Source: Paulownia fortunei (taxonomy: Eukaryota > Streptophyta > Magnoliopsida > Lamiales > Paulowniaceae). Taken from it: DNA of 64,000 nucleotides. The stretch is from positions 8,127,694 through 8,191,693 of the forward strand of contig CM033120.1 in NCBI GenBank assembly GCA_019321725.1, written 5' to 3'. Made by a program: the position numbers and the translations under genes. Position 1 is the first letter of the stretch; each line of letters begins with the position of its first letter. The notes under the pieces are model-generated. The model had not been told where the DNA came from and did not search any database. It saw only the letters and a program-made list of their open reading frames with translations. Below, one piece after another: positions 14,540 to 58,197 of this stretch.

Positions 14540-15181
14540 GGCTAAGAGTCAAATTCATTTTGCATTTTTGATCACTGTCCCTGCTGGACCTATCCACACA
14601 AGCCAATGATGGATCAAGTTCTGGCACATATGCTAGAAATTGATCAATCAGTTGGTCAGGTGTTTGTGTAGAAATAAGGATTTATCTCGCAGATTGTGAA
14701 ATAAAATATTTTTCTACAGTATGATCTACAAAAGATGACAAACTATAAAAGAAACCATTAACATTAAGAATACCCACAGATTTTTGGTGAATGTTGAATT
14801 GTGCCCAAGAGACAACTTCAAATAAGTCTAGTGTACCAAAACTACTAGGTAGGTTGATGAATGCATCTATATTATTTAACATGTTAGGCATTCTATCCTC
14901 AATATATGATACTTTTAGCTCATCTTCAATGGTTATACCTATGATATTCTATACTGTTAAAAGTTTTAGGATAACTCCTAAGACTTTGACTCTTCCCACA
15001 TGAGCAGAAGTAGTAACAATCCCCATTAACCCCAGATGTCTCCCCATACATTAAATGAATTCTTTTTTACTAGAGTTCTACCAAGGTTATTAGCTGCCTC
15101 TATAAACTCACTATTTTTTCCTAAATTGGTTCCACAAAAGGCACAAATACAGTTGAACTTGTAAGTGGAAGAGACTTTCAT
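14540..15181 (-). pseudogene. LOG-like pseudogene in element A
   Basis: Starts M-K-V-S-S-T-Y-K-F-N-C-I-C-A-F-C-G-T-N-L-G-K-N, matching the LOG N-terminus, then loses frame before the glycine loop (V-W-G-D in place of V-Y-G-G-G). The frame 14891-14682 keeps the middle: D-A-F-I-N-L-P-S-S-F-G-T-L then FEVVSWAQFNIHQKSVGIL and FVDHTVEKYFIS. The family's P-G-G-x-G-T-x-x-E motif is P-S-S-F-G-T-L-D-L here, so the active-site glycines and Glu are gone. Not functional. Confidence 0.85.
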
Positions 15182-15394
15182 TTTTTTTTCTTTTTTTTTA
15201 AAGTGAGTTGTTCAAAATTGGAGTAAGTACGATGTCATTTATTGAGGTGTGAATAGGGAATACATTTATTGCACATTTTTTCTTTTGTCAGAAAGGTTAA
15301 AAATAAGGACATAAAATTTATAAATTAACTATTTACACGTGAATGTACATGTGGTTGTGATTGTGGCTCATACCTTTATTTGATTTTATGTCCA

Positions 15395-15947
15395 GTAATG
15401 ACTTAAATGCCCTTTATAGATCGATTATATGCTTCCCACATAATTTTCTTATAAACTAGCAAACATGTCTTTTAATATCAGATTCCCAAGAGTATAACAT
15501 TCATATTCATCTTGAAAGTGATTCCATAAATCAAGTATTGCACAATATACTAATCCACAAGGATGCATCTCAAGAGTCAATAGAATGTCATCTAGAAACT
15601 CCTTACTCAATCCATCCTTAATGAATTGAATTTATCTTCTCGATTTTTAGAAACTATTCCTAAGGAATAACATTTTATGTTGCAAGTCCATCGAGCACAT
15701 CTATGACAAACTTGTATTCTTTTTTGGCCTTTGTTTTTTTTTTTTTTGCATATGAGCTTTTACCTAAACAAGGTATGTATCTAGTAAGCAAGATTGAAAA
15801 CTCACCTGCTGCTCTTACCTTTACTTCAATTATCCATCGTATATCCCTTGGGATGTCCTTGTGCATAAGCATCCTTAATATTTCAATCCTGGACTGGTCA
15901 TTTTTAGAAAGAAAAGCCTTCTTGAGAGTTAGAAGGACATTATCCAT
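15395..15947 (-). pseudogene. ORF-X (virus NABP-like) pseudogene in element A
   Basis: Starts M-D-N-V-L-L-T-L-K-K and keeps R-M-L-M-H-K-D-I-P-R-D-I-R-W-I-I-E, then G-K-S-S-Y-A-K-K-K-K before a frameshift in a poly-A run near 15735. Beyond it, other frames read C-H-R-C-A-R-W-T-C-N-I-K-C and then F-I-K-D-G-L-S-K-E-F-L-D-D-I. The four cysteines of the cluster (C-x2-C-x4-C-x3-C) are all present. See the copy in element C for function. Confidence 0.65.
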
Positions 15948-27344: not shown

Positions 27345-27966
27345 TAAATTTCACAGTCTGAGAGTCAAATTCATTTTTTATTTTTGACCTTGTCCCTATT
27401 AGACTAATCCACATGAGCCAATGTTGGATCAGGTTCTGGCACATATGCTAGAAGTTGATCAATTAGTTGGTCAGGTATTGGAGTAGAAATGAGAATTCAT
27501 CTCGCAGATGGTGAAGTAAAAACTTTTTCTACAGCATGATATACAAAAAATAGCAAACTATCAAAGACACCATTAACTTTAAGAATACCTACAAGTTTAT
27601 GGTGAATGTTGAGTTTTGCCCAAAAGGCAACTTAGATTAATTCCTCCAATGTACCAAACCACCAGGTAGAGTGATGAATGCATTTACATTGTTTAACTTG
27701 TTAGACATTCTATCCTTAATATGTGACACTTTTACCTCATTCCCGATGGTCATACCTGTAATATTATGTACTATTAAAGGTTTTGAGATAACTCCTAAAA
27801 CTCTGACTCCTCCTATATGAGCAAAAGTAGCAACACTCCCCATTAATCCCAAACTGTCTCCCCATACACTAAATAAATCTTTCTTTTTACTACTCATCAT
27901 TTTTTCCTAGATTGGTTCCTCAAAGACACAAATACAATTGAACTTGCGAGTGGAACAGATTTTCAT
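27345..27966 (-). pseudogene. LOG-like pseudogene in element B
   Basis: N-terminus M-K-I-C-S-T-R-K-F-N-C-I-C-V-F, then frameshift. Frame 27900-27637 keeps D-S-L-G-L-M-G-S-V-A, R-V-L-G-V-I-S-K and N-A-F-I-T-L-P-G-G before a one-base loss in the T run of the P-G-G-F-G-T motif shifts the frame to L-V-H-W-R-N. The C-terminal part (27620-27345) has further stops. Same position and order as in A and C. Confidence 0.85.
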
Positions 27967-28144
27967 TAATTTTTTATTTTTTTTTTAAAATGAATTGTGC
28001 AAAAATAGAGTAAGTACAGTGTTATTTATTAAGGTATGAATAGGGAATGCATTTATTGTACGTATTTTTCTTTTTTTAGAAAGGTTTAAAATAAGGACAC
28101 AAAGTTTGAAAAAAAACACGTGAATGTACACATAGTTGTGATTG

Positions 28145-28757
28145 TGACTCATATTTTCCTTTGTTTTTATGTCTAGTAATGACTTAAATGCCTTATATAG
28201 GTTGAGAATATGCTTCCCATCCAATTTTTTTATAAACTGGCAAATAGGGTCTATTAATATTAGATTCTCAAGATTATAATGCTCATATTTATCCCTAAAA
28301 GTCATTCAATAAATCAAGAATTACACGTTGTACTAATGCACATGAATGCGTCTCAAGAGTTAATATAATATCATCTAAAGACTCCTTACTCAGTCGATCT
28401 ATAATGAATTGAAATTTATCTTCTCGATTTTTAAAAACTATTCCTAAGGAATAACATTTTGTGTTACAAGTCCATCTAGCACATTTATAACAAACTTACC
28501 TTTTTTTTTCCCTTCATTTTTTTTGAATATGTGTTTTTACCAAAACCAAACATGTGTCTAGTAAACAAGTTTGGAAACTTGTATAAAAACTTACCTACTA
28601 CTCTTACCTTTGCTTCAATTATCCATCGTATGTCCATTGGGATGCACTTGTGCATAAGCATCCTTAATATTTCAATCCTGGTTTTATAAATTTTTAAAAT
28701 TGTATTTTTAGGAAAAAAAATAAATCATTTCTTGAGAGTTAGAAGAATATCATCCAT
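28145..28757 (-). pseudogene. ORF-X pseudogene in element B
   Basis: Begins M-D-D-I-L-L-T-L-K-K and ends, in frame 28305-27985, with F-I-K-K-L-D-G-K-H-I-L-N-L-Y-K-A-F-K. At the codon after H-I-L-N-L this copy has TAT, where A and C have stops (TAA, TAG), so it reads on through about 40 more residues. The basic and cysteine stretch near 28,500 is broken by poly-A length changes. Confidence 0.65.
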
Positions 28758-39989: not shown

Positions 39990-40620
39990 TTCTTGATTGC
40001 AAATATCTAAGCTTGTTAATTACAAGCATGAGTTGATAGAGCTCGGCCTTGATATATTTATAGAGCTGAATTTCAAATAATACTTGTTGATTACAAGTAT
40101 CTAAGCTTGTTGATTACAAGCATGACCTAAGAAGAGCTCATTAATTATGAGCAGGGAAGAGTTAATTGATTATAAGTTGGGAAGAGGTCATAAATTATGA
40201 GCCGAGAAGAGCTCATTGATGATAAGCTGAAAATAACTTATTGATGATGAGTTGAGAAGAGCTTATTGATGATGAGCTGAGAAGAGCTCATTGATTATGA
40301 GTAGAGAATAGCTCATTGATGATGAACTAGGAAGAGCTCATTCATGAAGAGTAGAGTAGAGCTCAGTGATGATAAGCTGAGAAGAGCTCATTGATGAGAA
40401 GCTGAGAAGAGCTCATTGATTATGAGCTTAGAAGAGCTCATTGATGATGAGTTAGAAAGAGCTCCTAGCTCATTGATGATGACCTGGGAAGATCTCATTG
40501 ATTATGAGCAAGGAAGAGGAGCTCATTGATCATCAGTTGAAAAGAGTTCATTTGTCATAAGTTGATGAGCTCATTGATTACAAGCTATGAAGAGCTTATC
40601 GATTATGAGTTGATATGAGC
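39990..40620 (+). repeat. 25-bp palindromic minisatellite in element E
   Basis: About 18-20 diverged copies of a 25-bp unit close to 'gagctgagaagagctcattgatgat'. Most units hold AGCTCAT-TGATG-ATGAGCT, a 7-bp inverted repeat around a 5-base loop. The left flank (about 39990-40110) has three related palindromes of the form CTTGT-TGATT-ACAAG. It lies between gag and the 3' LTR and has no open frame. Tat-group elements are known to carry variable tandem repeats in this position. Confidence 0.85.
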
Positions 40621-44170: not shown

Positions 44171-45711
44171 CTAAAGCCATGATGGATAAAATGCCTCTTG
44201 AAGCATGGAGTGGATAAAATGCCTCTTGAAGCACTTAAGAATTTTTGGATTAGTTTGTTATGCTCAAATTTTGAAAGAGATAAGGCAAAAATAAGACGAA
44301 ATAAGTAATAAATGCATTTTCATTGGCTATAACAGAAGTCGAAGGGTTATCGTCTCTACAACTTGAAAAATAAAAGTATAATAAGCAGTCAGGATGTCAT
44401 ATTTGATGAGAATGCATCTTGGAATTGGGAGATAAGTAAAATTGAGAAATGAGCAGCCTTCTTTGATGAGAAAAATTAAATTTCAGCAAGTGAGCTTGAA
44501 GAAAATGAAGAATTTGCTCCAAATATTTCAGGGGCTGATTTTTCATCTTCTAATTACTCATCTTCAAGTTCAAGTTCAAATTCTACTCCACTAAAAATGA
44601 GAAGCCTAAGTGATGTTTATGCAACGTGCAATTTTTGCACAATTGAACCTAAAAATTTTGATGAAGCAATGAAGAAAGAAGTTTGGATAAAACAATGTAA
44701 GAAGAAATAAATGTCATTGAAAAGAACAAGACATAGGAGTTAGTTAAAAGACCAACCAACAAAGAAGTTGTGGGTGTGAAGTGGATTTATAAGGTGAAAT
44801 TGAATTAGAATGGTTCTTTCCAAAGAAGGAAGGCAAGACTTGTAGCAAAGGGATACACACAACAGCCCGCAATTGATTTTTAATAGACTTTCACTTCAGT
44901 TACTCATTTAGACACAATCCAATGCTCATTGCATTTGCAGCCCAACAAGGATAGTCATCGTATCAACTTGATGTAAAATCTGTCTTTTTGAATGGACAAT
45001 TAAAAAAAGAAATTTTTGTAGAACAACCACAATGTTTTGTGATCAAAGAAGAAGAAGATAAAGTCTACCGACTAAAGAAAACTTTATATGAGCTAAAACA
45101 AGATCCAAGAGCTTGGTATTGCCAAATTGATTCATCAAGGTTTCAAGAAGAGAAAAGGTGAACCAAACTTGTATGTGAAAACTCAAGGTAAGTCCACTCT
45201 CATTATTACTTTATATGTTGATAATTTATTATTTTGTGGTGACAATGAGAACATGATATATGATTTTAAGAATGAGATGATGAAAATATATGAAATGAAT
45301 GATATGGGGATGCTCCATAATTTCTTGGGAATAGAGATTTATCAAGAAAGTGATAGTGTGTTTATTTGTCAAATGACATATGTTAAAAATATTTTAAAGT
45401 TTGGTATGAATAATTGTAATTCAACTTCTATACCATTCATTATGAATGAAAAATTAAAGAAGGAAGATAGTGAGAAAAAAGTTGATGCTACTTTGTATAG
45501 AAGTTTGATTGACAATTTGTTGTATCTCACTACCACAAGGCCAGATATCATGTTTGCCATAAGTTTGTTGTCAAGATTCATGAACAATCCTACTCAAACT
45601 CATTTTGGAGCTGGAAAAAGAGTGCTAAGGTATATCAAAGGTACAACTAACTTTGGTATCAAATATTGGACAAGTTCCAAAGCGAAGTTACAAGGGTATT
45701 GTGATAGTGAT
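44171..45711 (+). pseudogene. Copia reverse transcriptase and RNase H start
   Basis: G-V-K-W-I-Y-K-V-K-L and L-V-A-K-G-Y-T-Q mark the RT N-terminus near 44,775-44,860. The frame 45127-45711 has L-Y-V-D-N-L-L-F, in which the second catalytic Asp of Y-V-D-D is Asn, then L-H-N-F-L-G-I-E, T-T-R-P-D-I-M-F-A and R-Y-I-K-G-T-T. It ends G-Y-C-D-S-D at the LTR of element C. The Y-V-D-N change alone would kill polymerase activity. Confidence 0.85.
45707..45711. other. Target duplication GTGAT, left copy of element C
   Basis: GTGAT here and at 57733-57737 flank the two LTRs exactly, proving a single integrase-mediated insertion of element C into the copia RNase H. Confidence 0.9.
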
Positions 45712-47325
45712 TGCTACAACTTTAAGGTTGCAAACCCAAGTGTAGGTTGTAGTAAGTAATAAATTTCTCGTGAGTCTAAGGTCGATCCACAGGGAAGTTG
45801 TTTGAAGAATTCAAGTTTATATTTATAAAAAGATGGAGTTTATGTGAATAAAAAATATATGAACAATTAATGTATGATGTAACTAAAGAAAAAACTGAAG
45901 TAATAAAAGTACTGAGGATTAGGGATCCACTCTTGAGTTTTGGATAGAGAAATGGTTATTTATTCTTTTTACCTCTATTAATTGCCACAATTGGAATCCA
46001 TACATAATGAAGGTTCCAATGGGAAGATATTATCAAGTAACTTATGCAATAAGGTAATCATGATATTGTCTTACTATTGCAAATTATCTCTTAACACCAA
46101 CACTTATTTATGGGATCAAGCATTTATGTACTCCTTCGTCAACAACAAATCAAGGTTTCACATTAGCAGTCGGTGGGGTAAAACCGTACAATAAGCTAAA
46201 TGAACTCAAGTATTTGTTGTGCCATTGGAGATACATAAATCAAGAATCACCACAAAAACAAGTAGGGTTTAGATCAAAAATAATAATAATAATACAACAT
46301 ACTTAAATAATTTCTACCCTTATAATCATTTCTCTTCCTCCATTAAGAGATTCACCCTTTTTCCTCAGCAAAATAAAGTTTAGAAAGACATAATAAAAGT
46401 AACAAAGACTAAAAATATAAGAGAAACTAAAGAATGCATTTATATTACTACTAGAAAACTTACAATACTAGAAAACATACAAACTAGATAACTTAGCCTA
46501 AAGAAACCCTCTACCCCCTTTCTCTTCCAAGCTTAATACATGGCCTATTTATAGTACTTGGAGTAAACTAGAGGCCAAACAAATAATGGAGGGGTTAATC
46601 AAGTGGTAAGCTAGTTGCCAAGAGTTGGTAAGTTGTTACACAAATTTCTCATCTACTGAATTGAATTACATTTGTCGGTCAGATACAGCCAGATTTTGAA
46701 GATACGTGAAGAATACAAATTGTATATCTTTCAACGCTGATATATTTTCATATATCTTTTGTCAAATTTGGTGATCGGATGAAGGAGATATGATCAAATT
46801 ACCGAGTCATGTCCAAGAGCCGCCCTCTAACATCAGCAGCAACTTGCAGCCTATGGTTTTACCATTTCGATATATTTTCACACCATCTTGTCTTCAGCAA
46901 ACTTGTTTATTTACCTCTTGGGTATAACATATCCTAATTTCAGACCAAAATAAATTTGGACTCAAGATATATAACTAAATTGGTAAAATAAGTCAATACT
47001 GGGCTGAACTCTGATCCGAATTTTGGTGATCCATTTTGTGTAAATACTTGGGCGAATTTTCTGCTATTATCAAGACTGAATTGGGCTGAGCCTCCAACAT
47101 AAAAGTTGTACCTCTATCTCTTGGCTTTCAAATGAAACAAGCTTCAGGTCCATAGAGATTTTGATCATGAAGTTATGCTCAAATTACAAAACTGCACAAG
47201 TCTGAAAACATGCTTCCATTTATTCCCTAACACAAAACATTAATAAAATAAGAATATTAACAAGAATAAAGCAAGAAAAGTATAAAGGATTTGATATAAA
47301 AATATGTCAAAATATGCACTTATCA
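45712..47325 (-). repeat. Element C 3' LTR
   Basis: In plus orientation from tgctacaactttaagg to aatatgcacttatca. On the minus strand a TATA box CTATAAATAGGCC lies at 46543-46555. It contains an (AAT)n run near 46280. Confidence 0.9.
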
Positions 47326-47340
47326 AATTCCCCCCCACTT
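47326..47340 (-). other. Element C polypurine tract
   Basis: Minus strand AAGTGGGGGGGAATT directly followed by the LTR start TGATAAGTG. Confidence 0.85.
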
Positions 47341-49090
47341 AACCCTTGCTTGTCCTCGAGCAAGCTTAAAACAAACATAAACTAATCCACTTTCGTAGGA
47401 AATCACGATTGCATTTAGCATATGCAACAAGCCTTTAAACCCCTAGGTGGCCATAGAGGACGAGTTATAGTCTCGTGAATGTTTCCAGCAGTGATACCTA
47501 CAAACACCTATAATAACTATCTTCCAAATTTTATTCTCATGAAGCAACAAAGTAATATGGAAATAAAATCAAACAAGTGTTGAGTTTAACTCTTAGTCAT
47601 TCAAAAATCAATATATTTCCACAATAATCATACTCAAGTGTGTGTGTGGACAGTTAATGTCAATAGTGATGAAACTATGCATGTTTCAAATAAGTGAATT
47701 CTCATAAAACCTTACAAAAACCATCACCCAATCTCTAACAGAAAAGTTAAACATCATAGGCTCTTCATTTGGTGCAATCTCCACTACACTGAAGGCACCA
47801 CACGAAATCAAAAGGTCTTCAACAAAGGTTGTAATGGGGCCAAAGGGTGGTGATGTAGCTAAGAAATAAAAGGATAGGATGCAACAAAGGTTCTAAAAAC
47901 TTCATGGAATTAGAGACATAAAATTTATCGATGAAGAATTCTCCAACTCCACAAATTTCACACTGGAGTCTATTGTTATTGAATTGGACCCCCTTATTCA
48001 TCTTGCAACATCTCATTTTTAGTTGCAACTTGTAGCACTTTGCAACTTTTTTTTTAAATTGTTTTTCTTTTTTCTTTTTTTTTTCTTTTTTTTTTCTTTT
48101 TTTTTTTAAGAGAAACTCCCCCCACTTATCTTCTATCCCAACCTAAATTTCTTTTGTAAGTCCAAGCTTTCAATTGAATGTCTCTTAAACTCCAATCATT
48201 TTTAGAACAAGGGTTGGATAATAGTGTATTTAGGCTAGGTAAAAAGATATGGTTACAAAAAAAATATTTATTTATTGTAAGGCTCAAAGTGGTTTACTAG
48301 GGGGATGTTTTCTTTAAACATCATATAGGGAACAAGCTGATTTGGCAATGGTGCTAGAAAGCCTAATGCTTTAATCATTTTTCTAGTAGTGCACTATCAG
48401 TCGTTCGCCTCGACAGACCAAAAGTAAAAGTTCTAATACTCAACCCCTACATGTTGAAGATTCAAGTGATGATTAGAGCAAGGGCATAAGAACTATATAT
48501 TTTGACATGATTGTCTTCACACTAAATAACATAACTATTTGTGCAAAATAAAATTTGACTATAATTATCGCAAAAATATATTAACCAAATAACAACATCA
48601 AAGTCCAAAACAACACCCATCATCAATCAAACCATATTATTCATGCTTAATTTTAATCATTGAAGTTGGAAGAACCTATATGACTCAAAAAAAAAAATTA
48701 ATAATTCACAAATACTTGTTAAAAACTTTACAAACCTGCCATGTTATGCAAAAAATAGGGATGCGTCTCAAGAGTGTTACAATTACCCTTTACTCAGCCA
48801 CCTTTTTTTCATGCTTTCAACGGACTCATAAAAAAACACGCTTGATTTATATTTATTTATATATTATATATAATATTATTTTTTTTATTTTTTTTCAATA
48901 CTAAAAAAAAACACATTGAATATACAAGTCATGATATCAATTATCCTCCCCCCAACCTAATCGAGACATTGTCCCCAATGTCAAAAATAGATAGGAAAGT
49001 AGAGTTTGAAAGATATCACCTGAAATACGGCTAATAAAGCTGAAACAAAAAAAAACACATACTATTAGATAAAATTATTAACAATAAGTA
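47341..49090 (-). other. Element C 3' non-coding tail
   Basis: 1.75 kb between the LOG-like gene and the polypurine tract, aligning with A and B. Contains a long T-rich low-complexity run at 48047-48108. No shared open frame among the copies. Confidence 0.65.
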
Positions 49091-49743
49091 TCACAGACTG
49101 AGAGTCAAATTCAATTTGCATTTTCGACCATTGTTCCTATTGGACCAATCCACATTGGCCAAGGCTGGATCAGGTTTTGGCACATATGCTAGAAGTTGAT
49201 CAATCAGCTGGTCAGGTGTTGGAGCAGAAATGATGATTCTTCTCGCAGAAGTTGAAATAAACCCTTTTTTCGCAGCATGATCTACAAAAGATAGCAAACC
49301 ATCATAAAAACCATTAACATTAAGAATACCTATAGGTTTTTGGTGAATGTTGAGTTGTGCCCAAGAGACAATTTGGAATAATTCCTCCAGTGTACCAAAA
49401 CGCTAGGTAGAATGATGAATGCATCCGCATTGTTTAACATGTTAGGCATTCTGTCCTGAATATGTGACACTTTTAGCTCATCTCCAATGGTCATACCTGT
49501 GATATTCTGTACTGTTAAAGATTTTGGGATAACTCCCAGAACTTTGACACCTCCTACATAAGCAGAAATAGCAACACTCCCCATTAACCCCAAACTGCCT
49601 CCCCCATACACTAAATGAATTTTTCTTTCTGCTAAAGTTCTACCAAAATTATTGGCTGCCCCTATAAACTCACCATTTTTTCCTAGATTGGATCCACAAA
49701 AAACACAAATGGAATTAAATTTGCGAGTTGAAGAAACTTCCAT
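49091..49743 (-). pseudogene. LOG-like cytokinin-activating enzyme in element C
   Basis: The best preserved of three copies: about 218 residues if read through one frameshift, a normal LOG length. Starts M-E-V-S-S-T-R-K-F-N-S-I-C-V-F-C-G-S-N-L-G-K, then L-V-Y-G-G-G-S-L-G-L-M-G (phosphate-binding loop) and V-L-G-V-I-P-K-S-L. At about 49398-49402 a one-base loss breaks the P-G-G-x-G-T-x-x-E motif (reads L-P-S-V-L-V-H-W). The C-terminus resumes in another frame with F-V-D-H-A-A-K-K-G-F-I-S and I-S-A-P-T-P-D-Q-L. LOG enzymes release active cytokinin base plus ribose 5-phosphate from cytokinin nucleotides. It has no introns, unlike plant LOG genes. It lies in the env position of the retroelement. 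Confidence 0.9.
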
Positions 49744-49929
49744 ATCTTTTTTATTTTTTTTTGAAAATAAGTTGTGCAAAAATAGAGTGAGTACGGTGAT
49801 ATTTATTGAGGTGTGAATAGGGAATACATTTATTGCATGTCTTTTTCTTTTGTCAAAAGATTGAAAATAAGGACACATACGAAATTTAAAAATTACCTAC
49901 TAACATGTGTATGTACATGTAGTTGTGAT

Positions 49930-50538
49930 TGTGGCTCACATCTTCCTCTGGTTTTACGTCCAGTAACGGCTTAAACGCCCTCTATGGGTCGAGGATATGC
50001 TTCCCATCCAGTTTTCTTATAAACTGGCAAACAGGGTCTTTTAATGTCAGATTCCCAAGACTATAAAGCTCATATTCATTTCGAAAACGATCCCATAAAT
50101 CAAGAATTACACGTTCTACCAATCCACATGAATGCGTCTCAAGAGTCAATATAATGTGATCTAAAGACTCCTTACTCAGTCCATCCATAATGAATTTAAG
50201 TTTATCTTCTCATTTTTAGAGACCATTCCTAAAGAACGATACTTTGTGTTGCAAGTCCATCTAGCACAAATATGACAAACTTTCATTTTTTTCGCCCTTC
50301 GTTTTTTTGAATATGTGCTTTTACCAAAACTAGACATGTATCTAGTAAGCAAATCTGGAAACTCATGTGAAAACTCACCTGCTCTTACCTTTGCTTCAAT
50401 TATCCATCGTATGTCCTCCGGGATGCCCTTGTGCATAAGCATCCTCAATCTTTCAATCCTGATTTTATAAATTTTCAAAATTGCATTTTTAGGAAGAAAA
50501 GGAAATCGCTTCTTGAGAGTTAGAAAAATGTCACCCAT
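49930..50538 (-). pseudogene. ORF-X: virus NABP-like protein in element C
   Basis: Starts M-G-D-I-F-L-T-L-K-K (50538). Residues 24-50 form a helix-like stretch (R-I-E-R-L-R-M-L-M-H-K-G-I-P). Residues 72-99 read G-K-S-T-Y-S-K-K-R-R-A-K-K-M-K-V-C-H-I-C then A-R-W-T-C-N-T-K. After a frameshift near 50210, frame 50188-49982 continues G-L-S-K-E-S-L-D-H-I, L-W-D-R-F-R-N-E-Y-E-L-Y and H-I-L-D-P-stop. The basic G-x-S-x-Y-x-K-x-R-R-A stretch followed by a Cys cluster and a conserved F-I-x-D/E-G is the pattern of betaflexivirus nucleic-acid-binding proteins, some of which suppress RNA silencing. This is similarity recalled by eye. The first three cysteines are kept and the fourth is Tyr in this copy. 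It sits 240 bp upstream of the LOG-like gene. Confidence 0.6.
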
Positions 50539-50589
50539 TTTGAAAATAACAAGAAAAGAGAATGAGAAAAATAAAGAAAATTTGTACAA

Positions 50590-50779
50590 AGATTTCAGTT
50601 GTTTGGGAAACTGCCGTTATCCGCCATTTAACTGGGAAAAGAAAAAAATAAAAAATAAAAGAAGAAGAAGAGAAGAAAAAAAAAATAAAAAATAATGTCA
50701 GACAAAAAAATATATATACAACACTAATCATAACAAGGGTTAGAAAGAAAAAGAATTCCTCTTGTGAAAATTGATTTTC
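50590..50779 (-). other. Spacer between integrase and ORF-X in C
   Basis: A-rich low-complexity DNA (in plus orientation 'aagaaaaaaataaaaaataaaag' type) separating the two genes. The same spacer is in A (15950-16180). A splice acceptor for a subgenomic transcript could lie here, but none is convincing. Confidence 0.4.
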
Positions 50780-52063
50780 TAGAAATGGTTTAACTCTTTG
50801 TCCATTTACTTTGAATATGTTACCATTTCTAGGATTCTCATGTCAATCGCCCCATAAGGATATACTTTTTTTACAACAAAAGGACCACTCCACCTTGATC
50901 TCAATTTTCCAGGAAACAAATACAATCGAGAATTATAAAGCAAAATTGATTTTGCTTTATAAATTTTAGAATTCTTATATGCATCATTTCTCAGTTCTTC
51001 AAGTTCATTGATTTGCAATTTGCGCAATTTTGAAGCTTCATCAAGGTTGAAGTTAAATATTTTGATTGTCCAATAAGCTTTATGTTCAAGTTCAACAGGT
51101 AAATGACAAGATTTTCCATAAACTATCCTATAAGGAGATATGCCTAATGATGTTTTGAAAAAGCAGTTCTATATGCCCAAAGTGTATCGGTAAGTCTAAG
51201 AGACCAATCTTTACAGTTTGGGTTAACTGTTTTCTCCAAAATTTGTTTTATCTCCCTATTTGCAAGTTCAACTTGTCCATTTGTCTGAGGGTGATAAGGG
51301 GTTGCAACTTTATGTATGATTCCATATTTCTTCATTAAAGTTCCGAAAACTTTGTTACAAAAATGTTTTCCCCCATCACTGATAATAGATCTAGGAATTC
51401 AAATCGACTTAAAATATTTTCTTTCAAAAATTTTATCACTATTTTGTGATCATTGTTTCGACAAGGAATTGCCTCGATCCATTTTGAAACATAATCTATG
51501 GCAACCAATATGTAAAGAAAACCAAATGATAATGAAAATGGCCCCATAAAATCAATACCCCAACAGTCAAAGATTTCAATCACTAGGATAGGGTGTAGGG
51601 GTATCATATTTCTCTTTGAAAGGGACCCTAACTTTTGACAATTTTCACAACTTTTGCAGAAAGTGTAAGTATCTTTGAAAAGAGTTGGCCAATAAAATCC
51701 ACATTGCAAGATTTTTGCAGTAGTTTTCTTTACAGAGAAATGACCACCACATGCTTCTGAATGACAAAATTTGACAATATTACCTATCTCATTGTCAGGC
51801 ACACATCTTCGAAAGATTTGATCCGGATAATATTTGAATAGGTATGGATCATCCCAATAAAATTTTTTAACCTCAGTCAAAAACTTCTTTTTATCTTGAG
51901 AGTTCCAATGTGATGGCATCTTTCCTGTCACAAGAAAATTAACAATGTCAGCAAACCAAGGTAAAATAGAAACGTTAAATAATTGTTCATCAGGGAAAGT
52001 GTCATTAATAGGTGTGGTTTGAAATGAGTCATCACAAACAAGTCTCGACAAATGATCAGCCAC
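50780..52063 (-). pseudogene. Element C integrase
   Basis: Frame 52063-51335 has H-S-E-A-C-G-G-H-F and C-K-S-C-E-N-C-Q (HHCC zinc finger), then W-G-I-D-F-M-G-P-F with the first catalytic Asp. The second Asp region reads L-L-S-V-M-G-E because of a frameshift. Frame 51335-51144 has [11 protein letters not shown] with the catalytic Glu. Frame 51027-50806 has [18 protein letters not shown], the C-terminal barrel. At least three breaks, so inactive. Confidence 0.85.
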
Positions 52064-52071
52064 TACATTCT

Positions 52072-52890
52072 CTACTCCCTTTTATCTCGAATAGTAACAT
52101 TAAATTCCTGGAGTAAGAAAATCCACCTAATCAGTCTTGGTTTAGCATCTTTTTTTGACAATAGATATTTCAAAGCTGCATGATCACTGAAAACAACAAT
52201 TGGTGAGCCAACAAGATAAGATCGAAATTTATCCAATGCAAAAACTACAGCAAGTAATTCTTTTTCAGTTGTTGTATAATTCAATTGAGCACCATTTAAA
52301 GTTTTACTTGCATAGTAAATAACATATGATTTTTTATATTTTCTTTGTCCCAAGACAGCTCCAACAGCATAATCACTAGCATCACACATTATTTCAAAAG
52401 GTAAAGTCCAATCTGGAGGCTGCATGATTGGAGCAGACGTAAGCATGCTTTTAAGCTTAACAAAAGTATTTTCACAGTTTTCAGTCCATTCAAAAATAGT
52501 GTCTTTTGTTAGAAGATTACACAAAGGTTTAGATATTATACTAAAATCTTTGATAAATCTTCTATAAAAACTAGCATGTCCTAAAAATGATCTAATCTCC
52601 TTCACAGTCTTTGGTGTTGGCAAATTGGCAATTAACTCAATTTTAGATTTATCAACCTCAATACCTTCTGATGATATAATGTGTCCAAGAACAATACCAG
52701 TTGTTACCATGAAGTGACATTTCTCCCAATTGAGCACAAGATTCTTTTCTTCACACCTGATCAAAACCTTTTCTAAATTAGATAAGCAATCATCAAATGA
52801 ATTACCAAAAAAGAAAAATCATCCATGAAGACTTCAAGAAAACATTCAACCACGTCACTAAAAATACTAAGCATGCATCGTTGGAATGTA
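52072..52890 (-). pseudogene. Element C RT C-terminal half and RNase H
   Basis: Starts after the RT frameshift. On the minus strand [10 protein letters not shown] near 52830 is the catalytic F-M-D-D. Then frame 52764-52072: [40 protein letters not shown] (RNase H), T-E-K-E-L-L-A and [10 protein letters not shown]. It stops at 52072, just before the integrase frame. Catalytic RNase H residues appear intact. Confidence 0.85.
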
Positions 52891-53563
52891 GCTGGTGACA
52901 TAATCCAAAAGGCATCCTTCGATATGCAAAAGTACCAAAAGGACATGTAAAAGTTGTTTTCTCTTGATCTTCAAGTGCAATTGCAATTTGATTATATCCA
53001 GAATATCCATCTAAAAAGCAATAAAATTCGTGTCCTGCAACTCTTTCTAAAATTTGATCCATGAAAGGTAATGGAAAATGATATTTTCTAGTAACTGAGT
53101 TGAGTTTTCTATAGTCAATGCACATTCGCCAACCAGTAACAATCCTAGTTGGAATTAATTCATCATTCTCATTCTTGACTACAGTAACTCCAGATTTCTT
53201 AGGTACAACTTGAGTAGGACTTACCCATTTGCTATCAGAAATAGAATAAATGATTCCATTATCTAAGAGTTTAATGACTTCATTTCTTACTACTTCTTTC
53301 ATATTAGGATTTAGCCTTCGTTGCATTTCTCTAGATGGTTTAGCATGTTCCTCTAGATAGATATTATATGTGCAAATGAAAGGATTAATACCTTTAATAT
53401 CAGCAATGGTCCATCCTAAAGCATTCTTATGCATTTTCAGAGTTTCGATCAACTTACCTTCTTGATATGCATCGAGTTTGGAAGAAATTATTACTGGAAA
53501 AGTTTCATTCTCACCCAAGAAAGAGTATTTCAAATTAATTGGCAAAGGTTTCAATTCAACCAC
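52802..53563 (-). CDS. Element C reverse transcriptase, N-terminal half
   Basis: Opens with [11 protein letters not shown], then [19 protein letters not shown] and [13 protein letters not shown], then [11 protein letters not shown] and [12 protein letters not shown] loss of a few bases right after G-L-C (near 52895) replaces the usual N-A-P-A-T-F and shifts the frame. The residues beyond it (L-H-S-N-D...) are out of frame. The order and wording are Athila. Confidence 0.9.
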
Positions 53564-55566
53564 GGAGCTTTAATACTTGATGGAATAGATTTTACTGTTG
53601 ATGATGAAAGTTCTTCGAACCTTGGCTTCCAAAAATATTTTTCTTGTACCTGCAAAAATTCAGAGATAGTATTAGTGTGTTCCTTTTTATAAATACTTTC
53701 ACTTTCAAAACAAGTCTCCAAAGAATCTGAAGAGTTAGTAGTAGTAAAGTATTCATGAACAAGTTCCTCAATTGAATCCACTTCATGTACTTCGACATCT
53801 TCTGCAGGTTGCATACAAATATTAAACACATTTAGTTCCAAAGTCATATTTCCAAATGATAACTTCAAAATACCATTTCTACAATTGATCAAAGCATTTG
53901 AAGTTGCAAGAAAATGACAACCCAAAATGATAGGAATTTGTGTATGTGTTTGTGCAACAGGCTCTGTATCCAAAACAATGAAATCAACTGGAAAGTAAAA
54001 CTTATCAATTTGTACCAACACATCTTCTACTATTCCCTTTGGAACTTTAATCGAACGGTCAGCTAGTTGGAGTACAACAGAAGTTGTTTTAAGTTCTCCC
54101 AAACCTAACTGTTCATAAACTGAGAAAGGTAGAAGATTTACACTAGCACCAAGATCAAGCAAAGCACGCTCTATTCTAGTGTTTCCTATGATACATGAAA
54201 TGGTTGGACAACCTGGATCTTTGTACTTGGGTGGAGTGAATTGTTGAATGATTGAACTAACACTTTCAGTTAAAAATGCCTTCTTTTGTACATGATGTTT
54301 TCTTTTGATTGTACACAAATCTTTCAAAAATTTGGCATAAGGTGGAACTTGCTTGATTGCATCCAATAATGGAATATTAATTTTGACTTGTTTAAAAATT
54401 TCAAAAATTTCAGCATTTGAGTTCAATTTCTGAGTTGCTTGCAATCTTTGAGGAAAGGGTGCTGGAGGTAAATATTTTTCTTTTTCATCATTTTCACGCT
54501 TACCTTCTTCAAACTTACCTTCATCGTCAAGACTATTTCCATTTTTTATTTCTGGAGGTGGATTAGAAACTTTCTCCTTGGGATGAATAGTCTTGTCAAC
54601 AACTTTTCCATTCCAAAGAGTTGTAACTGAATTAGCCTCCTTGACTGCATTTTCACCTGAAGAAGAAACATGACACTGAGTAGAAGGATTAGGTTGAGGT
54701 TGAGCAGGAAATTTACCTTTTTCATGAGTACGCAAAGAAGTTGTCAGTGTTGAAAGTGTGCTTCTGATCTCATTGATAGCTTGTGAAGTCTGATTATTGA
54801 TGTTTGTTTGTTCATGCATAAATGCTTGCAAAGTCTCCTCAATGGATTTTGTATGTGGAGGTGGATAAGAATGAAAGTTTTGTGGTTTTTGTGAATGCGG
54901 TGGTTGGGCACGGTTATCATCTCGCCAACTGAAATTGGGATAATTTCTCCATTGTGGATTGTAAGTTTCAGAATATGGAGAATGGAAAGGTTTTTTTAAT
55001 GTGTTCATAAAATTTGTTTGTACTGGAAGGTTTGGACATTCATTGGTGGAGTGCCCCAAAATTTCACAATTGCTACAAACTTCTTCCTCTTGTACAGATT
55101 TGATTTCCTTTACTTTTTTAAGTTCTATGGCTTCAACTTTTCTTGTTAAACTAGCAAGCCTAGCATTTAGATCATCTTCTGGGCTAAGGTAATATTTTCC
55201 TTTATTACTATTAGCAAGATTAGATCTAATAGAACCTTCGAAAGAATTAACACTATGCCATGATTGAGAGTTTTCTTCCAAATGATCTAGGTATTCTAGG
55301 GCTTCATCAGGTTCCTTATCAAGAAACTCACCATTACACATTGTTTCAACAAATTGTTTTGTTTCAGGAGTTAAACCTTCATAAAAGAAACTAATTAATC
55401 GCCATTTTTCAAAACCATGATGTGGGCATGAATTCAACAAATCTTTAAATCTTTCCCAACATTGAAAGAAAACTTCATTCGAATTTTGAGAAAAATTTTG
55501 AATTTGTCTTTTCAAAGCATTAGTTTTATGAGTTGGAAAGAATTTTTTCAAAAATTCAGCTTGCAT
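53551..55566 (-). CDS. Element C gag C-terminal part and protease
   Basis: 671 residues open. Gag core: F-L-K-K-F-F-P-T-H-K-T-N-A-L, C-W-E-R-F-K-D-L-L-N-S-C-P-H-H-G-F, F-Y-E-G-L. Zinc knuckle C-S-N-C-E-I-L-G-H-S-T-N-E-C near residue 180. A Pro-rich linker follows, then protease with R-A-L-L-D-L-G-A-S-V-N-L-L-P (D-L-G-A-S is the normal Athila form) and I-I-L-G-C-H-F-L-A. It overlaps the RT frame by 13 bp. The gag N-terminus is separated from it by a stop. Confidence 0.9.
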   Translation of the reverse strand: MQAEFLKKFFPTHKTNALKRQIQNFSQNSNEVFFQCWERFKDLLNSCPHHGFEKWRLISFFYEGLTPETKQFVETMCNGEFLDKEPDEALEYLDHLEENSQSWHSVNSFEGSIRSNLANSNKGKYYLSPEDDLNARLASLTRKVEAIELKKVKEIKSVQEEEVCSNCEILGHSTNECPNLPVQTNFMNTLKKPFHSPYSETYNPQWRNYPNFSWRDDNRAQPPHSQKPQNFHSYPPPHTKSIEETLQAFMHEQTNINNQTSQAINEIRSTLSTLTTSLRTHEKGKFPAQPQPNPSTQCHVSSSGENAVKEANSVTTLWNGKVVDKTIHPKEKVSNPPPEIKNGNSLDDEGKFEEGKRENDEKEKYLPPAPFPQRLQATQKLNSNAEIFEIFKQVKINIPLLDAIKQVPPYAKFLKDLCTIKRKHHVQKKAFLTESVSSIIQQFTPPKYKDPGCPTISCIIGNTRIERALLDLGASVNLLPFSVYEQLGLGELKTTSVVLQLADRSIKVPKGIVEDVLVQIDKFYFPVDFIVLDTEPVAQTHTQIPIILGCHFLATSNALINCRNGILKLSFGNMTLELNVFNICMQPAEDVEVHEVDSIEELVHEYFTTTNSSDSLETCFESESIYKKEHTNTISEFLQVQEKYFWKPRFEELSSSTVKSIPSSIKAPWLN

Positions 55567-55572
55567 TTCTTG

Positions 55573-56022
55573 TCAAGTGCCAATTGACCTAGGTTTTAAA
55601 GAATTAAGCCAATTTTTTGCTTTATCTTTTAAAGAGAAAGGAAATAATTTGAGCTTAACAATCTCATTTGTGCAAGTTTGGTCATCAAAAGTGGCACATA
55701 CTTCATCAAATTCTTTTAAATGCAAGTAAGGACTTTCAGAGTCTAAACCATGAAAATTAGGAAGTAAAGGGATCATACCTGACTTGAATCGAAAATTATT
55801 TGCATTTAGAGGAAAAATAAAACAAGAAGGAGAAGAATTTCGAGGAGGTTGCAAGTAATAACGCATGGTACGCACCTGTTGATTCTCATTTTCATCCTGG
55901 ACACTTTCATTTTCAGCCATGGTGGAAGTGTGTGGAGATGATTCAAACAAATTTCCAAACAAAGTTTCGGAATTATTTCTTACTAAACGTCGAGAATTAT
56001 GACTACGATACCATATAACCAT
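55573..56022 (-). CDS. Element C gag N-terminal part
   Basis: 149 residues: F-K-S-G-M-I-P-L-L-P-N-F-H-G-L, E-S-P-Y-L-H-L-K-E-F, L-K-L-F-P-F-S-L-K-D-K-A-K-N-W-L. It ends I-G-T-stop-Q-E-M-Q-A, where related elements have Trp, so a single TGG to TGA change cuts gag. Starts about 75 bp from the primer site. Confidence 0.85.
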   Translation of the reverse strand: MVIWYRSHNSRRLVRNNSETLFGNLFESSPHTSTMAENESVQDENENQQVRTMRYYLQPPRNSSPSCFIFPLNANNFRFKSGMIPLLPNFHGLDSESPYLHLKEFDEVCATFDDQTCTNEIVKLKLFPFSLKDKAKNWLNSLKPRSIGT

Positions 56023-56096
56023 ATATCCATAAAGAAAATAAACAAACTATATTTACAAAGGAAAAATATTAACAAACCTGAATACTTACTTTGCCT

Positions 56097-56114
56097 TCCC
56101 CGGCAACGGCGCCA
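56097..56114 (-). other. Element C primer binding site (tRNA-Asp)
   Basis: Plus strand TCCCCGGCAACGGCGCCA matches the tRNA-Asp 3' end, the usual Athila primer; six bases separate it from the 5' LTR. Confidence 0.9.
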
Positions 56115-56120
56115 AAAACT

Positions 56121-57732
56121 TGGTACAACTTTAAGGTTGCAAACCCAAGTGCAGGTTGTAGTAAGTAATAAATTTCTCGTGAGTCCGATGTCGATCCACA
56201 GGGAAGTTGTTTGAAGAATTCAAGTTTATATTTATAAAAAGATGGAGTTTATGTGAATCAAAAATATATGAACAATTAATGTATGATGTAACTAAAGAAA
56301 AAACCGAAGTAATAAAAGTACTGAGGATTAGGGATCCACTCTTGAGTTTTGGATAGAGAAATGGTTATTTATTCTTTTTACCTCTATTAATTGCCACAAT
56401 TGGAATCCATACATAATGAAGGTTCCAATGGGAAGATATTATCAAGTAACTTATGCAATAAGGTAATCATGATATTGTCTTACTATTGCAATTATCTCTT
56501 AACGCCAACACTTATTTATGGGATCAAGCATTTATGTACTCCTTCGTCAACAACAAATCAAGGTTTCACATTAGCAGTCGGTGGGGTAAAACCGTACAAT
56601 AAGCTAAATGAACCCAAGTATTTGTTGTGCCATTGGAGATACATAAATCAAGAATCACCACAAAAACAAGTAGAGTTTAGATCAAAAATAATAATAATAA
56701 TACAACATACTTAAACAATTTCTACCCTTATAATCATTTCTCTTCCTCCATTAAGAGATTCACCCTTTTTCCTCAGCAAAATAAAGTTTAGAAAGACATA
56801 ATAAAAGTAACAAAGACTAAAAATATAAGAGAAACTAGAGAATGCATTTATATTACTACTAGAAAACTTACAATACTAGAAAACATACAAACTAGATAAC
56901 TTAACCTAAACAAACCCTCTACCCCCTTTCTCTTCAAGCTTAATACATGGCCTATTTATAGTACTTGGAGTAAGCTAGAGGCCAAACAAATAATGGAGGG
57001 GTTAATCAAGTGGTAAGCTAGTTGCCAAGAGTTGGTAAGTTGTTACACAAATTTCTCATCCACTGAATTGAATTACATTTGTCGGTCAGATACAGCCAGA
57101 TTTTGAAGATACGTGAAGAATAAAAATTGTAGATCTTTCAACGCTGATATATTTTCATATATCTTTTGTCAAATTTGGTGATCGGATGAAGGAGATATGA
57201 TCAAATTACCGAGTCATGTCCAAGAGCCGCCCTGTAACATCAGCAGCAACTTGCAGCCTATGGTTTTACCATTTCGACACATTTTCACACTATCTTGTCT
57301 TCAGCAAACTTGTTTATTTACCTCTTGGGTATAACATATCCAAATTTCAGACCAAAATAAATTTGGGCTCAAGATATATAACCGAATTGGTAAAATAAGT
57401 CAATACTGGGCTGAACTCTGATCCGAATTTTGGTGATCCATTTTGTGTAAATACTTGGACGAATTTTCTGCTATCATCAAGACTGAATTGGGCTGAGTCT
57501 CCAACATAAAAGTTGTACCTCTATCTCTTGGCTTTCAAATGAAACAAGCTTCAGGTCCATAGAGATTTTGATAATGAAGTTATGCTCAAATTACAAAACT
57601 GCACAAGTCTGAAAATATGCTTTCATTTATTCCCTAACACAAAACATTAATAAAACAAGAATATTAACAAGAATAAAGCAAGAAAAGTATAAAGGATTTG
57701 ATATAAAAATATGTCAAAATATGCACTTATCA
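56121..57732 (-). repeat. Element C 5' LTR
   Basis: In plus orientation from tggtacaactttaagg to aatatgcacttatca, 1,612 bp, the promoter-bearing copy. It aligns end to end with 45712-47325. Confidence 0.9.
56949..56961 (-). promoter_or_regulatory. TATA box of element C
   Basis: Minus strand CTATAAATAGGCC, conserved at 46543-46555 and near 12,100 in A. Transcription would start about 30 bp leftward (near 56920), placing most of the upstream LTR in U3. Confidence 0.6.
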
Positions 57733-58197
57733 GTGATTGGGCAGGTTGCTTGGATGATATGAAGAGTACTTCTGGTTATACTTTTTTCCTTGGTTCAAGT
57801 ATGTTTTCTTTGGCCTCAAAGAAGCAACAATTTGTTGCTCAATTCTCAGCAGAAACTGAATATGTTTCAGCTGCAATGGCAACATCTCAAGTCTTTTTTG
57901 GTTGAGAATAATTCTTGAAGATGTTGGGAGAAAACAAGGTGTTGCAACAAAATTACTTTGTGACAACAAATAAACAATTACAATAGGAAATAACCCAATT
58001 TTCACAGCCAGACAAGACACATATCTATCAAGTATCATTTCATTCGAGAAGCAATTGAAGATGGTCAAGTGCAACTCACATTTTACAAGTTTGAAGATCA
58101 AGTTGTAGGCATTCTTACCAAGACTCTTCCTAAGGATAAATTTCTAAAAATAAGATAACTTCTTGGAGTAATGGATCAGCACATTAAGGGGGAGAAA
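57733..58197 (+). pseudogene. Copia RNase H C-terminal part
   Basis: Begins with the duplicated GTGAT. The frame 57711-57905 reads W-A-G-C-L-D-D-M-K-S-T-S-G-Y-T-F and A-E-T-E-Y-V-S-A-A, the catalytic end of copia RNase H. Stops follow. The purine run 'aagggggagaaa' (58186-58197) is the polypurine tract. Confidence 0.85.

Follow-up and report, generated by a model that had tools for sequence, protein, structure and literature searches.

An ORF-X and LOG-family gene module in a high-copy, putatively Athila-like Ty3/gypsy retrotransposon of Paulownia fortunei

Introduction

Additional ORFs of plant Ty3/gypsy elements mostly have no known conserved domains (PMC9289625), and their roles are mostly open. 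Sense ORFs located between pol and the 3' LTR, env-like or of other kinds, were described for Athila, Bagy2 and SIRE (PMC7264820), and a LOG-family domain, YgdH, was identified in Gypsy consensus sequences of Citrus sinensis and C. clementina and, without filter, of Populus trichocarpa, a finding given as being in line with Steinbauerova et al. 2011 (PMC9289625). The same source describes orchid Gypsy elements with an ORF for a 2-ODD RNA demethylase, a captured gene that was kept through many replication rounds (PMC9289625).

Here we analyze a family of elements of Paulownia fortunei that carries two small genes, ORF-X and a LOG-like gene, starting from element C in a window of 64,000 nucleotides (the whole stretch of DNA that was analyzed, from contig CM033120.1). 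These genes share with the ORFs of Athila, Bagy2 and SIRE the sense orientation and the position between pol and the 3' LTR, but they are two, they are small and they have other homologies (PMC7264820). With the Citrus and Populus elements they share a LOG-family domain inside Gypsy LTR elements; however, the passage on that domain names no viral-type partner, no selection test of the domain and no active-site change (PMC9289625). The orchid 2-ODD enzyme differs from LOG and its activity was shown in vitro (PMC9289625), while that of the Paulownia LOG is predicted from sequence. Extra ORFs were elsewhere counted from at least 250 codons (PMC6317226), and ORF-X and LOG would escape that count, since both are under its limit. 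A LOG-family domain in Gypsy elements is already known; for the viral-type partner and the pocket change described below, we found no precedent in the open-access literature, i.e. no report that an LTR element carries a flexivirus-type gene or that LOG has undergone such a change. The accessory module is real and present in many copies; it has relatives in other eudicots, its LOG gene is clearly selected, and the active site of LOG has changed in a specific way. With one ORF that is related to a viral class for which anti-silencing activity was reported, and another that codes for an enzyme on which selection can be measured, the role of such ORFs becomes open to direct test by enzyme and silencing assays.

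Element C and its gene module

Element C (Table 1) has the paired LTRs, target-site duplication (ATCAC, at 57733-57737 and 45707-45711), primer binding site and polypurine tract of a full-length insertion. Its LTRs are 97.8% identical across 1615 columns, and its primer binding site, TGGCGCCGTTGCCGGGGA, is one that we take to be of the tRNA-Asp type. A domain scan, conducted piece by piece, gave the order protease, RT, RNase H and integrase, which is that of Ty3/gypsy. A chromodomain and a second (archaeal-type) RNase H had no match in the scanned pieces of C, nor in the 394-aa integrase frame of another copy, in which H2C2 and rve were matched, and the family is, by exclusion, probably Athila-like. 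The Athila ORF-1 domain, PF03078, was unmatched in the domain scan of element C, yet Athila membership is compatible with this, because PF03078 was found in just 16% of Athila elements (PMC6317226). In the stretches that were scanned, none of the Pfam models for env-like proteins or for Athila ORF-1 was hit by ORF-X or LOG. There are two polypurine-tract-like stretches in C, one behind LOG and the other at the 3' LTR, with ~1.6 kb without assigned gene between them. Elsewhere in the window, a 25-bp unit forms a tandem array at 40097-40496.

Table 1. Features of element C and of the older copies A and B (window positions)
Feature	Position	Strand	Evidence or remark
Element C, full-length Ty3/gypsy LTR retrotransposon, broken frames	45712..57732	-	~12.0 kb; LTR pair, ATCAC repeats, domain pieces
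5' LTR	56121..57732	-	97.8% identity to 3' LTR
Primer binding site TGGCGCCGTTGCCGGGGA	56097..56114	-	read directly from sequence
Candidate splice donor GTAAGTAT	56082..56089	-	position relative to primer binding site across copies
gag and protease frames	53551..56022	-	Retrotrans_gag, aspartyl protease matches
RT, RNase H and integrase frames, broken	50806..53563	-	RVT_1, RT_RNaseH, Integrase_H2C2, rve matches
Candidate splice acceptor AG, upstream of ORF-X	50611..50612	-	read from sequence
ORF-X, frameshifted in C	49982..50538	-	PF01623 E 4.7e-5, tblastn in two frames
LOG-like gene, frameshifted in C	49091..49743	-	PF03641 on both pieces, tblastn in two frames
Internal polypurine-tract-like stretch	48944..48957	-	read from sequence
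Polypurine tract adjoining 3' LTR	47326..47340	-	read from sequence
3' LTR	45712..47325	-	LTR pair alignment, ends read
Older copy A, decayed	14556..15947	-	ORF-X 15947-15420, LOG about 15181-14556; tblastn
Older copy B, decayed	27374..28757	-	ORF-X 28757-28201, LOG 27966-27374; tblastn

The two genes lie downstream of integrase on the minus strand, which is sense to gag-pol, with the start of ORF-X at 50538 and the end of the LOG frame at 49091. These coordinates agree with a preliminary description of this DNA, which had placed ORF-X and then LOG between the integrase and the polypurine tract of C. The two genes that it had assigned to C are both present, but both are frameshifted there (ORF-X at ~50197-50209, LOG at ~49399-49405), and neither A nor B holds an open copy of ORF-X or LOG. 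The PF01623 match on C is above the curated cut-off, and PF03641 matches the two pieces of LOG with E-values of 4.5e-7 and 2.6e-18. The recurrence of pair, order and spacing in A and B was reproduced from tblastn coordinates, with distances between the starts of ORF-X and LOG of 795 (C), 766 (A) and 791 bp (B), the LOG start of A being extrapolated by two residues. The observation of an ORF-X and LOG cassette in a retroelement is confirmed.

Distribution in the Paulownia genome

We searched the genome of P. fortunei (509 Mb, 1247 contigs) with the cassette DNA, and all 40 copies scored, out of 2596 first-look candidates, match it with 92-100% identity; query positions 1-1448 are covered in 39 of them and 4-1448 in one. 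At the profile level, where 150 of 486 candidates were scored, PF01623 gave 23 matches, 23/23 above cut-off; the 14 control genomes had no match. By tblastn, ORF-X is present at all of these 23 loci and LOG at 21, the exceptions (L023 and L024) lying in ~3.1 kb stretches. The search with the ORF-X protein gave at least 150 genome matches at 88-100% identity (150/150 scored, of 4058 candidates), and that with PF03641 also at least 150, with 150/150 scored above cut-off (of 2486 candidates). Among the 150 PF03641 matches listed, 115 are free of internal stops and 127 span the full profile within a single frame, which is what a gene without introns would give. Canonical plant LOG genes generally contain introns.

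The two genes are physically paired: among the matches listed there are at least 57 ORF-X/LOG pairs, all with ORF-X first and LOG second, within 3 kb and on one strand, none being in the other order, and each gene was hit on 20 of contigs C1-C20. Counting as open a match of at least 180 aa for ORF-X and 205 aa for LOG, the 40 best copies hold 16 open ORF-X frames, 15 open LOG frames and eight copies with both, and 22 further loci hold one, one and none, respectively (L028 was dropped, being a copy of L071). That the family, and not just the local copies, carries both genes was thus borne out by a check for local-only occurrence, given the 40/40 genome copies and the relatives in other plants. 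At C14:18901032-18902344 two ORF-X copies, both 97% identical to the query, face each other in head-to-head orientation, ~200 bp apart, an inverted pair that could give a hairpin RNA. The codon strings of two loci on contigs C533 and C4 (L041 and L042) are identical and may be an unplaced duplicate of one locus.

Relatives in other plants

Of 482 candidate proteins, 434 are related to ORF-X at E <= 1e-3, and among the best 120 of these are some with names from Xanthoceras, Acer, Populus, Rhamnella and Orobanche. Seven of these non-Paulownia proteins were aligned and share 58-71% identity with the one of Paulownia. In Rhamnella, one gene model (P0119) holds an ORF-X part above the PF01623 cut-off and can be read as a putative integrase end fused to ORF-X. 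LOG has 5143 relatives, of which the best 120 are named from Paulownia, Reevesia, Orobanche, Rehmannia, Populus, Diplodiscus and Xanthoceras. Asterids and rosids are both among these plants, five of which were checked for their placement. One ORF-X protein (P0009) and one LOG protein (P0235) each lie on a contig of 8723 bases, which suggests that they share one contig, i.e. that the genes are associated outside Paulownia.

We noticed that several proteins named or annotated as LOG (P0124, P0125, P0127 and P0132 of Paulownia, P0201 of Populus and P0136 of Rehmannia) are, or by their pocket resemble, retroelement cargo. The four Paulownia gene models are such cargo, and the Populus trichocarpa protein named LOGL10 looks, by its pocket, like cargo too; annotated 'LOG' genes should thus be taken with caution, since they can be carried by retroelements.

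The LOG-like protein and its changed pocket

All three LOG proteins of the elements that were scored reach 173-179 bits with TIGR00730, against a cut-off of 96.35. With the plant proteins AtLOG3 and AtLOG8 they have in common the fold family, the PGGxGTxxE motif and the catalytic arginine and glutamate, and they differ from both in the replaced lysine and glutamate of the pocket, in being intron-less and in their high copy number. In CgLOG, the proposed catalytic residues are Arg99 and Glu122; the adenine site consists of Met96, Lys100 and Glu121, and a prenyl site was proposed to comprise Met96, His97, Lys100, Glu125 and Trp129 (PMC4979012).

We compared these eight positions in two sets, each gathered around one protein: 120 element-type LOGs (P0002 and the 119 other best-listed of its 5143 relatives, chosen by similarity to this one element protein) and 120 canonical LOGs (the best-listed of 7990 AtLOG3 matches, i.e. 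the nearest relatives of one LOG). All eight positions are kept in 120/120 canonical LOGs, and AtLOG8 also retains the pocket lysine and glutamate. The element-type LOGs mostly keep the catalytic arginine (111/120), Glu122 (116/120), Glu121 (116/120), the tryptophan (103/120), the methionine (89/120) and the histidine (65/120), but the equivalent of Lys100 is present in only 4/120 and that of Glu125 in 3/120. The lysine is replaced by methionine, isoleucine or leucine in 115 of the 120, and the glutamate by glutamine or histidine in 110. Within Paulownia, the 62 copies with a mapped LOG have methionine or isoleucine at the lysine position (62), glutamine at the glutamate position (57), the catalytic arginine (54) and the catalytic glutamate (58). 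Each of the 120 element-type LOGs presumably sits in an element, the direct demonstration being confined to Paulownia. In a tree, the 120 form one clade (support 0.888) with 0/120 canonical LOGs inside, and in a smaller tree the earliest to diverge are three proteins of Xanthoceras in which the old pocket is retained. Three Xanthoceras gene models (P0134, P0135 and P0181) are LOG-like, with repeated LOG parts, and keep the canonical lysine and glutamate. A stretch in P0134 resembles what we take to be a Ty3/gypsy gag-protease linker which, together with the canonical pocket, suggests that an element with the old pocket may exist.

The designation of the gene as cytokinin-activating, given in the preliminary description, is weakened by these results: the assignment to the LOG family and the retention of the catalytic residues stand, but the function becomes doubtful because the lysine and glutamate of the adenine/prenyl pocket are replaced in nearly all element-type LOGs. 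It is conceivable, if somewhat doubtful, that LOG still activates cytokinin, raising the local hormone and favoring dividing, meristem-like cells, in line with that description, and that the two losses compensate each other, since both residues are at the same proposed pocket and changed together. The catalytic arginine and glutamate, PGGxGT and, mostly, the tryptophan are kept; the protein is under selection (see below); the nearest solved structures are those of AtLOG3 (2a33) and AtLOG8 (1ydh); and the NCBIfam cytokinin model (NF058542, cut-off 300) does not tell element LOGs (116-127 bits) from four canonical plant LOGs (116-133 bits), all of them scoring under cut-off. Against this reading, 116 and 117 of the 120 element-type LOGs, but 0/120 canonical ones, lack the counterparts of Lys100 and Glu125, respectively, and CgLOG mutants with alanine at the AMP site, except S19A, lose almost all activity (PMC4979012).

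ORF-X and its viral relatives

Among 15 aligned ORF-X members, at E <= 0.01, Carla_C4 (PF01623) is matched by 15/15 (best 1.2e-6) and Viral_NABP (PF05515) by 13/15 (best 3.5e-8). The curated cut-off of PF01623 is reached by P0001 and P0009, and that of PF05515 by P0009, in which residues 39-121 are matched; P0001 is under the PF05515 cut-off, and P0071 and P0104 are under the Pfam cut-offs. Over the Paulownia genome, PF05515 had no match at E <= 1e-3 (81/81 candidates scored). From these profile matches, ORF-X is kin of the nucleic-acid-binding/cysteine-rich protein of flexiviruses (carla-, allexi- and mandariviruses), and its earlier portrayal as virus-like and RNA-binding is upheld to the extent that it is a relative of a viral nucleic-acid-binding protein. 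Viral members of this NABP/CRP class were described as silencing suppressors, and CVB p12 also as a transcription factor that induces hyperplasia (PMC12172455).

ORF-X has in common with the viral proteins, besides the Carla_C4/Viral_NABP homology, a basic stretch followed by a cysteine cluster, and it differs from them in being encoded by a retroelement, in its compact C-x2-C-x4-C-x3-C motif and in an extra conserved C-terminal part (PMC12172455). The motif is present in 101 of the 120 best-listed relatives (of 434), and the size among these 120 is 176-190 aa in 98 and exactly 182 aa in 66. No virus-named protein is found among the best 120 of the 434 relatives, a search of viral contigs with the ORF-X alignment gave 49 pattern stretches of which none was confirmed, and no ORF-X was found in plasmid records. 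Against solved structures the ORF-X profile gave nothing under E 0.3, and the structure prediction is poor (mean pLDDT 61.5).

The origin of ORF-X may also be non-viral, flexiviruses having taken the gene from plants or retroelements, or both having an older common source. The Pfam matches indicate kinship, not direction, and the conserved C-terminal part extends past the stretch matched by the viral profiles. Nothing was found that speaks against this origin, which we hold to be rather less likely than not.

Candidate splicing signals

The primer binding site, as TGGCGCCGTTGC, was identified in 14/20 copies examined, and GTAAGTAT lies within 40 nt of its start in 14/14 copies that have it. 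A site similar to the candidate acceptor of C, TCAGTTTY, precedes ORF-X in 47/64 copies, at no more than 100 nt from its start, a count without chance control. The polypyrimidine-CCCAG of C was rejected as the ORF-X splice acceptor, being present in 1/44 copies versus 45/545 control stretches. By analogy with retroviral env, the module would be expressed from a spliced RNA, probably with the donor just behind the primer binding site and the acceptor upstream of ORF-X.

Selection and proposed function

Codons of natural copies were mapped to the open frames, and on an unrooted tree of 38 copies we fitted, with two starts and shifted-frame controls, a codon model in which internal branches and terminal branches each have their own dN/dS. 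These 38 are what was left of 39 copies holding 70% or more of all three genes after an identical one had been dropped. For LOG, dN/dS is 0.216 on internal branches (profile interval about 0.13-0.36) and 0.975 on terminal ones; an internal value of 1 is rejected (p 5.8e-9), internal and terminal values differ (p 7.2e-8), and the shifted frames give internal values of 1.16 and 2.05. The integrase piece has an internal dN/dS of 0.607 (p 0.004), or 0.317 (p 7e-5) without copies L012, B and L031. While the elements are active, LOG is under at least as much constraint as this integrase piece, and the constraint on LOG is gone thereafter.

For ORF-X, the 38 copies give 0.586 on internal branches (interval about 0.33-1.1; p 0.09 against a value of 1) and 0.761 on terminal ones, and 61 copies an internal value of 0.578 (p 0.035). 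The shifted frames give 0.80 (+1) and 1.44, the +1 frame not being clearly different from the real one, and the terminal value is lowered because 22 of the 64 mapped copies were picked by the ORF-X profile. Purifying selection, which the preliminary description had set as a check for both genes, is strong for LOG between transpositions, with neutral controls, and only borderline for ORF-X within the Paulownia genome (0.58-0.59, p 0.035-0.09), the case for whose constraint rests mainly on full-length conservation in other eudicots. Two analyses were set aside: a midpoint-rooted run, which split a terminal branch into an 'internal' half and was replaced by the unrooted one, and 13-copy fits of all genes, which were unstable, the one-rate value lying outside the two-rate values for several genes.

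From the module, its copy number, its homologies, the purifying selection on LOG and the pocket change, all computed, we infer expression, enzyme activity with some substrate, silencing suppression and a benefit to transposition in the following way. An Athila-like Ty3/gypsy lineage of eudicots would carry, at the env position, a two-gene 3' accessory module. Judged from its viral relatives, ORF-X most likely binds nucleic acid and either counters host silencing of the element or alters host transcription. The intron-less LOG has kept its nucleotide-5'-monophosphate phosphoribohydrolase core while its base/prenyl pocket changed; it is kept by selection between transpositions, so that its product would help the element, most likely as an active phosphoribohydrolase of shifted base specificity that, wherever the element replicates, alters the cell's nucleotide or hormone state. 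We favor this explanation as a whole, if only by a little. In a stronger form, put forward tentatively, a eudicot lineage would long have carried a matched host-manipulation pair, made of a silencing suppressor of plant-virus type and a neofunctionalized LOG with a changed pocket for a new nucleotide substrate; the pair would stand where env is usually located and be expressed by way of a spliced RNA, and the element would be a plant retroelement equipped with virus-like accessory genes.

Some retroviruses use a dUTPase and, by analogy, the LOG-derived enzyme might clean the nucleotide pool for reverse transcription. The kept phosphoribohydrolase core, the changed base pocket and the selection for function would suit such a role, but nothing in the data singles it out, and we consider it quite improbable. 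That both genes are passive passengers copied with the element is hardly credible: most copies are indeed broken (just eight of the 40 best have both frames open) and selection on ORF-X is borderline in Paulownia, but this view is largely refuted for LOG, whose dN/dS is 0.22 on internal branches and neutral on terminal ones and in the shifted frames, and the length and motifs of ORF-X are conserved in other eudicots.
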